A stretch of DNA of 64,000 nt. Origin: Erythrobacter ramosus. GTDB taxonomy: Bacteria > Pseudomonadota > Alphaproteobacteria > Sphingomonadales > Sphingomonadaceae. Made by a program: the position numbers and the translations under genes. This document shows, piece by piece, positions 7,182 to 42,496 of this stretch; position 1 is the stretch's first letter, and every line of letters begins with the position of its first letter. The stretch spans positions 992,001 to 1,056,000 of the forward strand of contig NZ_WTYB01000002.1 of the NCBI RefSeq assembly GCF_009828055.1. The letters run 5' to 3'. The notes under the pieces are model-generated. The model was not told where the DNA came from, made no database searches, and was given only the letters and a program-made list of their open reading frames with translations.

Positions 7182-7243
7182 CGTTATCTGTCCTCTAGAT
7201 CGTCAGAAGGAAAAAGCGTGCAAAGGGGGTGAGCCCCGCTCGC

Positions 7244-41937: not shown

Positions 41938-42039
41938 CGTCATTGCGAGGAGCCGGAGGCGACGCGGCAATCCATGCCCTGCCGTTCCGCCGAGCGGAAA
42001 CGGCAATTCATGGATTGCTTCGCTTCGCTCGCAATGACG
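41938..42039. repeat. Dispersed inverted repeat, CGTCATTGCGAG type
   Basis: CGTCATTGCGAG (41938-41949) and its reverse complement at 42028-42039 flank a body with further inverted blocks (GGCAATCCATG and CATGGATTGC). This element type is widespread in alphaproteobacterial intergenic DNA. Confidence 0.85.
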
Positions 42040-42130
42040 AACAAAACGGAACTCCCCGCACCCGGTCCGATTCTATACATTAATATCCACAGGCTTGCCC
42101 CCAGCCTGTCCACAGCCCGAACCTGAAATG

Positions 42131-42184: not shown

Positions 42185-42334
42185 GAACGACTATGACGGC
42201 GGAAAAGATTTATTCAAGTCTTGTCCTTTCGCGGCCCATGAATCACATTGCATCTTGAGGCCAGCGGCGCGCGCGGCTCTCGGCCCCCGGTGAAACGGTC
42301 GGGTCTGCTTACAAGCTTGAAAGGAGGTGATCCG

Positions 42335-42391
42335 ATGTCTCATGGTTCAGTAGCGAGGTCGGTGAAGATCCCTACGGAGCATACTCGGTAA
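42335..42391 (+). CDS. 18-residue mini-ORF with a perfect Shine-Dalgarno
   Basis: ATG at 42335, TAA at 42391; peptide MSHGSVARSVKIPTEHTR. The 14 bases AAAGGAGGTGATCC (42320-42333) are the exact complement of the 16S rRNA 3' end, with AGGAGG seven bases before the ATG. Three hairpins follow (42397-42413, 42418-42436 and the terminator). The peptide has three Arg/Lys and no obvious regulatory amino acid run, so classical attenuation is not indicated. It may be a ribosome-loading leader or a small regulatory RNA. ilvE begins 340 bp downstream, beyond the terminator. Confidence 0.4.
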   Translation: MSHGSVARSVKIPTEHTR

Positions 42392-42443
42392 TCCTCAAGC
42401 CAGAGTAAGGCTTCGTGAGCGGCACTTCCGGCCGCTGACCATG

Positions 42444-42482
42444 AAAGGGCGTTTCCACCGACAGGCTGGAAGCGCCCTTTTC
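42444..42482 (+). terminator. Intrinsic terminator of the mini-ORF unit
   Basis: AAAGGGCGTTTCCA (42444-42457) pairs with 42467-42480 (one G-U), loop of 9, followed by TTTTT ending at 42482. A strong plus-strand terminator that closes the ~160-nt unit. Confidence 0.85.
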
Positions 42483-42496
42483 ATTATCTGTGTTCC

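Follow-up and report, generated by a model that had tools for sequence, protein, structure and literature searches.

CC2171 is catalogued as a Caulobacter small RNA (sRNA) under Rfam family RF01867 and reportedly originates from Landt 2008. In the literature searched we found no function for CC2171 and no account of a match to the 16S rRNA tail, or of an open reading frame (ORF) kept without regard to its peptide, in this RNA. Here, we analyzed a stretch of 64,000 nucleotides (nt) from Erythrobacter ramosus (contig NZ_WTYB01000002.1, positions 992,001 to 1,056,000), referred to as the window, which contains a distant relative of CC2171 at positions 42,221-42,485 of the plus strand. In this unit, a 15-nt complement of the 16S 3' end precedes an 18-codon ORF, and the best reading is that ribosome loading and brief translation matter while the encoded peptide does not.

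Papers given by PMC number are cited for the part of their text that was available. RF01867 appears there in a table of sRNAs predicted for Mesorhizobium huakuii, as entry MH_s33 (PMC5596092), and among families with improved structure (PMC11701678); CC2171 could not be matched in the available list of Hfq-bound Caulobacter sRNAs, in which names differ (PMC11005374), and no mention was matched in the available part of PMC8959179. The unit, a small RNA whose short ORF is probably translated, can be compared with rnTrpL/peTrpL and other translated sRNAs of Sinorhizobium meliloti, a species of the same bacterial class, where 33% of 54 new small ORFs sit on annotated sRNAs (PMC10117765). However, rnTrpL is a leaderless tryptophan attenuator with a functional peptide, whereas in our unit the tail match is as long as it can be and no constraint on the peptide is visible. 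The extended Shine-Dalgarno sites of Staphylococcus aureus likewise pair with the 16S tail over an unusual length at small ORFs; they are general start-site features and involve upstream ORFs, in contrast to the single conserved, free-standing unit described here (PMC13009471). The Caulobacter sponge CrfA and the sRNAs SisA-D resemble it in an RNA interplay at Shine-Dalgarno-like motifs, but their mechanism is sponging of one sRNA by another, in which a start codon or ORF has no part (PMC12559287). Our literature searches returned nothing on anti-Shine-Dalgarno sRNAs in Sphingomonadaceae and nothing joining the term "perfect Shine-Dalgarno" with sRNAs.

A first-pass annotation of the window had reported a 14-nt match to the 16S 3' end at 42320-42333, followed by an ORF of 18 codons from ATG 42335. 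Both are present as described, the ORF ending with TAA 42389-42391. The match (AAAGGAGGTGATCC) has no other exact copy within the window and, as had been claimed, no other site pairs as far: the second-best site (7222-7235) carries 2 mismatches, and shuffled sequences are expected to hold 0.13 sites with at most 2 mismatches. It grows by one base on the 5' side to 15 nt, the next base outward being unpaired. The resulting block is complementary to GGAUCACCUCCUUUC, the 3' end of the 16S gene of the same genome, which we take to be the free 16S tail after helix 45. This 15-mer occurs twice in the genome, in the unit and antisense within a 16S gene. The start codon lies 1 nt past the block and 7 nt past GGAGG, and the predicted duplex with the 16S tail reaches -28.5 kcal/mol, compared with -13.3 kcal/mol for an ordinary strong site. 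The stretch 42250-42495 (246 nt) folds with a z-score of -3.2, and the unit is laid out as follows.

42221-42249, plus strand: possible promoter, TTGTCC and CACATT with a 17-nt spacer (suggested by sequence, low confidence)
42319-42333, plus strand: 15-nt exact complement of the 16S tail, an extended Shine-Dalgarno site, unchanged in 41 family sequences
42335-42391, plus strand: 18-codon ORF MSHGSVARSVKIPTEHTR, ATG 42335-42337, TAA 42389-42391; conservation of start, frame and stop but apparently not of the peptide
42341-42350, plus strand: 5' strand of helix P1, CATGG-T-TCAG, in codons 3-6 (partner 42435-42443)
42357-42362, plus strand: 5' strand of possible helix P2, GGTCGG (partner 42428-42433; 91.1% of cells paired)
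42373-42389, plus strand: 5' arm of hairpin P3, its last base being the first base of the stop codon (partner 42400-42417)
42400-42417, plus strand: 3' arm of hairpin P3, with covariation
42419-42435, plus strand: local hairpin GCGGC/GCCGC, alternative to P2 (97.6% of cells paired)
42428-42443, plus strand: 3' strands of P2 (42428-42433) and P1 (42435-42443, CTGACCATG), directly 5' of the terminator
42444-42485, plus strand: intrinsic-terminator-like hairpin 42444-42480 with tail TTTTCATT, from sequence and folding

The promoter-like boxes are similar at several loci of the same genus and would imply a 5' untranslated region of about 80 nt; a promoter scan listed none. A terminator-like hairpin with its tail is present where the annotation had placed a strong terminator, but its strength could not be confirmed because a simple terminator scan left the hairpin 42444-42480 out.

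The conservation among relatives by which the annotation had proposed to check the unit was indeed found. Using blastn, 37 of 61 genomes matched: these were the 37 genomes of the genus, counting the unit's own genome, while none of the 24 from other families of the order did. Because it is conserved among relatives, the unit goes beyond chance, and a chance motif is ruled out. Close copies also occur in records named Porphyrobacter sp. and uncultured Erythrobacter sp. (L163, L206). The exact 15-mer was present in 95 of 196 genomes of the order, with some matches antisense to 16S genes; 7 of 60 loci, in which such an antisense 15-mer is followed by AGCCGCAGG, were set aside as 16S antisense copies. 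A presumed second copy in the same genome, a 28.5-bit model match at C2:7109-7292, has no pairing block and was dropped, and a mobile element was rejected after plasmids and phages gave no blastn match.

Similar units are found in many Alphaproteobacteria. With the gathering cut-offs applied, a tRNA is the only Rfam match in the window. A search limited by E-value returned RF01867 (CC2171) with 53.8 bits and an E-value of 1e-10 over model positions 1-159, the full length (2.9e-10 when searched over the whole genome). Because 53.8 bits lie below the curated cut-off of 75, the unit is not filed as a member of the family; it is a distant relative of CC2171. In addition to the full-length match, it shares with the model the 16S-tail block, UGUCUCAU, the closing helix before the terminator and the terminator itself, while it differs in its start codon (AUG, compared with GUG in the model consensus) and in the coding part. 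Across the class, 66 of 289 genomes matched RF01867 at E ≤0.001, ten above the cut-off; among 14 control genomes only Caulobacter vibrioides matched. Eight named loci of other groups scored from 88.5 (Bosea) and 72.7 bits (Acetobacteraceae) through 43.6 (Bradyrhizobium), 37.6 (Defluviimonas), 35 (Hyphomonadaceae) and 33.8 (Mesorhizobium) down to 31.3 (Inquilinus) and 27.3 (Azospirillum). The weakest of these matches could be due largely to the start signal and the terminator, so shared ancestry of all types is not established. One genome of the same family, with units at G061:C1:805104-805255 (L076) and G061:C1:2921849-2922077, holds a CC2171-like unit that scores 68.9 bits and has the peptide MSHCHALNAASGTTVIASAGWLRA, alongside a unit of the window's type that scores 34.6 bits; the types can therefore coexist as paralogues.

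We then considered the reading frame. At 71 places in 69 of 386 class genomes, the block is followed by 37 ATG and 34 GTG start codons; a second scan of the class (372 genomes) added 3 TTG and no CTG starts. TTG follows the block in host family f22 (L160, L280, L281, L282) and in a copy on a contig labelled as a Gemmatimonadetes metagenome-assembled genome (L167), which may reflect mis-binning or transfer. The 267 records collected comprise 248 distinct copies, of which 129 are diverged (at most 70% alike over 72 nt). No in-frame stop occurs within 12 codons in any of the 129, whereas the two other frames have one in 52 and 53 of 120, and 500 shuffles gave a mean of 43 and a minimum of 28. The stop falls at codons 13-36 in 125 of the 129 (shuffles: mean 47, maximum 64); both limits, 12 and 36 codons, were set after ORF lengths were known. 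The stop codon itself varies (TGA 72, TAA 38, TAG 19). In the Sphingomonadaceae type, in which TAA, TGA and TAG all occur, the ORF has 18 codons in 85 of 92 distinct copies and 19 in five; in the Rhodobacteraceae type, it has 18 codons in 16 of 16. Start, frame and stop thus appear to be under selection, as would be expected of a dual-function RNA or a micro-protein gene. An identical start signal was observed before ORFs of 55-59 codons with a signal-peptide-like N-terminus (L095, L098, L234, L141, L142, L117); the signal is therefore not restricted to throw-away ORFs.

The peptide itself apparently shows no visible selection. The ratio of nonsynonymous to synonymous proportions (pN/pS) was 1.21 for the Sphingomonadaceae type (49 distinct ORFs), 0.90 for the Rhodobacteraceae type (16), 1.56 for the Mesorhizobium type (5) and 1.04, 0.99 and 1.06 for CC2171-like ORFs of 25, 24 and 23 codons (16, 14 and 9), a mixed group whose peptides begin MSHC, MSHR, MSD, MSI or MSN. 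Out-of-frame ratios were below the in-frame ratio in every group (0.74 and 0.61 in the Sphingomonadaceae type). Over 49 independent close pairs, pN/pS was 1.05 (175 nonsynonymous and 59 synonymous differences), with group values of 1.40 (24 pairs), 1.14 (8) and 0.93 (7). By the same method, control genes of the family loci gave 0.212 (aminotransferase, 31 pairs) and 0.349 (lipoprotein-like, 7 pairs). Purifying selection on the peptide was thus not detected in any of these groups (0.90-1.56). A TW(I/V) motif of other groups had first been read as coding conservation, but pN/pS near 1 there argued against it.

Conserved RNA structure was examined in a family alignment of 41 of the 74 distinct short-insert copies. 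P3 consists of 13 pairs, 10 of which changed on both sides. P1, P2 and P3 together exceeded all 500 shuffles on five of five measures, as well as every slid version, and P3 carries this signal. P2 has no pair changed on both sides and is mutually exclusive with the local hairpin at 42419-42435. P1 is invariant in the family; across the class, it covaries in the two largest groups. In an anchored test on 130 diverged copies, devised after the result of an unanchored one was known, native P1 partners scored 13.33 and swapped partners 10.25 (standard deviation 0.22), with 0 of 200 swaps as high. Copies with less than 160 nt after the start were left out, as were ORFs of more than 45 residues in the anchored test. 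The signal comes from the CC2171-like group (55 copies) and the mixed rest (38), the Sphingomonadaceae type (24) being uninformative. A terminator-like hairpin was found in 130 of 130 copies, a count we do not rely on because the rules were lax and had no shuffled control. Rhodobacteraceae-type loci (for example L161, L172 and L181) carry sequences resembling CACCTCCT or GCCTCCTT in the 3' part. These could base-pair with the ribosome site of the same unit, a hint that this type may use another switch.

Taken together, the sequences support a conserved RNA on the plus strand with a covarying P3 and, in two groups, P1; its frame and stop are under selection, and for the peptide no selection is visible. 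Because start and stop are kept and the peptide apparently is not, the unit probably acts by engaging ribosomes and not by a protein. We propose a free-standing, CC2171-related small RNA with the ribosome as its target, to which we give a probability of roughly 45%. In this model, the RNA would be transcribed here, the block would pair with the entire free 16S tail, and a 30S subunit would be captured on the start codon. The ribosome would then read the throw-away ORF and thereby open P1 and the stop-codon hairpin P3, and translation would stop before reaching the 3' strand of P1 or the terminator. The RNA could thus alternate between a P1-closed form and an open form occupied by a ribosome, either acting as a decoy for ribosomes or sensing those that are free. 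Among the functions offered by the first-pass annotation, a ribosome-titrating small RNA appears to fit best, because the block that recurs from type to type is the complement of the 16S tail together with the start codon.

Several observations weigh against this proposal. The motifs used for collecting copies fix the pairing block and (A/G/T)TG, and in one scan also the TC of codon 2, so that conservation of block, start and codon 2 is partly built in; frame and stop were left free. No P1 signal was obtained in the Rhodobacteraceae, Mesorhizobium and Bradyrhizobium types (7, 2 and 4 copies), where 120, 110 and 38 of 200 swaps scored as high. The unanchored P1 test was weak (16.4 compared with 14.8 in the Sphingomonadaceae type, 16.4 compared with 15.0 in the CC2171-like group) and gave no excess in those same three types. 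In an automatic consensus fold, some of the 16S-tail match is joined to sequence elsewhere in the RNA, by pairs that are invariant and thus neither supported nor refuted, and the mean unpaired probability predicted for the match is only 0.46. Three small groups showed lower close-pair pN/pS values (0.71, 0.69 and 0.57 in 6, 2 and 2 pairs), and pN/pS may be inflated throughout because RNA structure also limits synonymous change. Finally, a Caulobacter study reports 133 non-coding RNAs (ncRNAs), and its ribosome profiling found intergenic ncRNA regions untranslated, apart from two earlier-predicted ncRNAs whose names are not stated in the available text; this counts against translation of the unit unless CC2171 is one of the two (PMC4117421, Schrader 2014).

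Among the alternatives, a base-pairing sRNA whose structured part holds a seed for regulating mRNAs, with the ORF affecting only stability, holds up best but is unlikely. RF01867 is catalogued as an sRNA, and the family shows almost no variation in the 3' part CCGCTGACCATG; between groups, however, the P1 3' strand varies with its partner, which argues against a class-wide seed, and conservation of frame and stop would be left unexplained. Rather less likely is a micro-protein gene, another of the annotation's suggestions, with the 18-residue peptide (14-36 residues elsewhere) as the product. It would account for the strong ribosome site and the conserved frame and stop, and serine occupies codon 2 in 122 of 129 copies through four different codons, partly as a consequence of the motif that fixes TC. 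Yet the peptide varies between groups, its pN/pS lies near 1, far from that of the neighboring genes, and the in-frame ratios exceed the out-of-frame ones. We consider it improbable that the unit is a sponge for anti-Shine-Dalgarno sRNAs such as Caulobacter SisA-D, as the match spans exactly the 16S tail, past the CCUCC core, and runs into a conserved start codon and ORF.

The annotation had also raised a translated leader. Conserved frame, stop and choice of start codon point to translation, but a leader or attenuator role for the downstream gene, presumably a branched-chain aminotransferase as named from its translation, is very improbable. At 47 of the 53 family loci, this gene follows the unit in the same orientation; fixed linkage and orientation were not found, since the unit is inverted relative to its neighbors in one of the 53 (L021) and five loci did not show the gene within their bounds. 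Moreover, the terminator hairpin intervenes, the peptide has no leucine, isoleucine or valine run, and other groups have different shared neighbor genes (by a crude ORF caller). That the minus strand, identical to the 16S tail over the block, acts as an antisense RNA, the last of the annotation's suggestions, can practically be dismissed, as the consensus fold favors the plus strand (-32.8 compared with -17.4 kcal/mol; mean single fold -52.3 compared with -41.7; covariation term 3.46 compared with 0.27), the ORF signals lie on the plus strand, and 147 G-U cells face 4 A-C cells, a count biased by helices found on the plus strand.

Two inverted repeats were observed near units. In Rhodobacteraceae-type loci (for example L161, L204 and L257), CACAAAATCTGTG lies immediately behind a TTGACA-like box upstream of the unit in 9 of 16 and is a possible operator. 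In the window, a long imperfect inverted repeat, CGTCATTGCGAGGAGC ... GCTCGCAATGACG, occupies 41938-42040 between the lipoprotein-like gene and the unit.

Leaderless mRNAs are common in Caulobacter, where 375 were reported (PMC4117421). A wider role as a class-wide ribosome regulator, which would cover the anti-Shine-Dalgarno tails of 30S subunits, lower ordinary initiation and favor leaderless messages while its peptide-free translation reports idle ribosomes, is doubtful. Our proposal of an RNA that targets the ribosome is directly testable in Caulobacter and in Sphingomonadaceae. If true, CC2171 and its relatives would be marked by a match to the whole 16S tail plus an obligatory short ORF whose peptide is irrelevant, and ribosome engagement itself would be the function, an unusual means by which an RNA could monitor or regulate translation.
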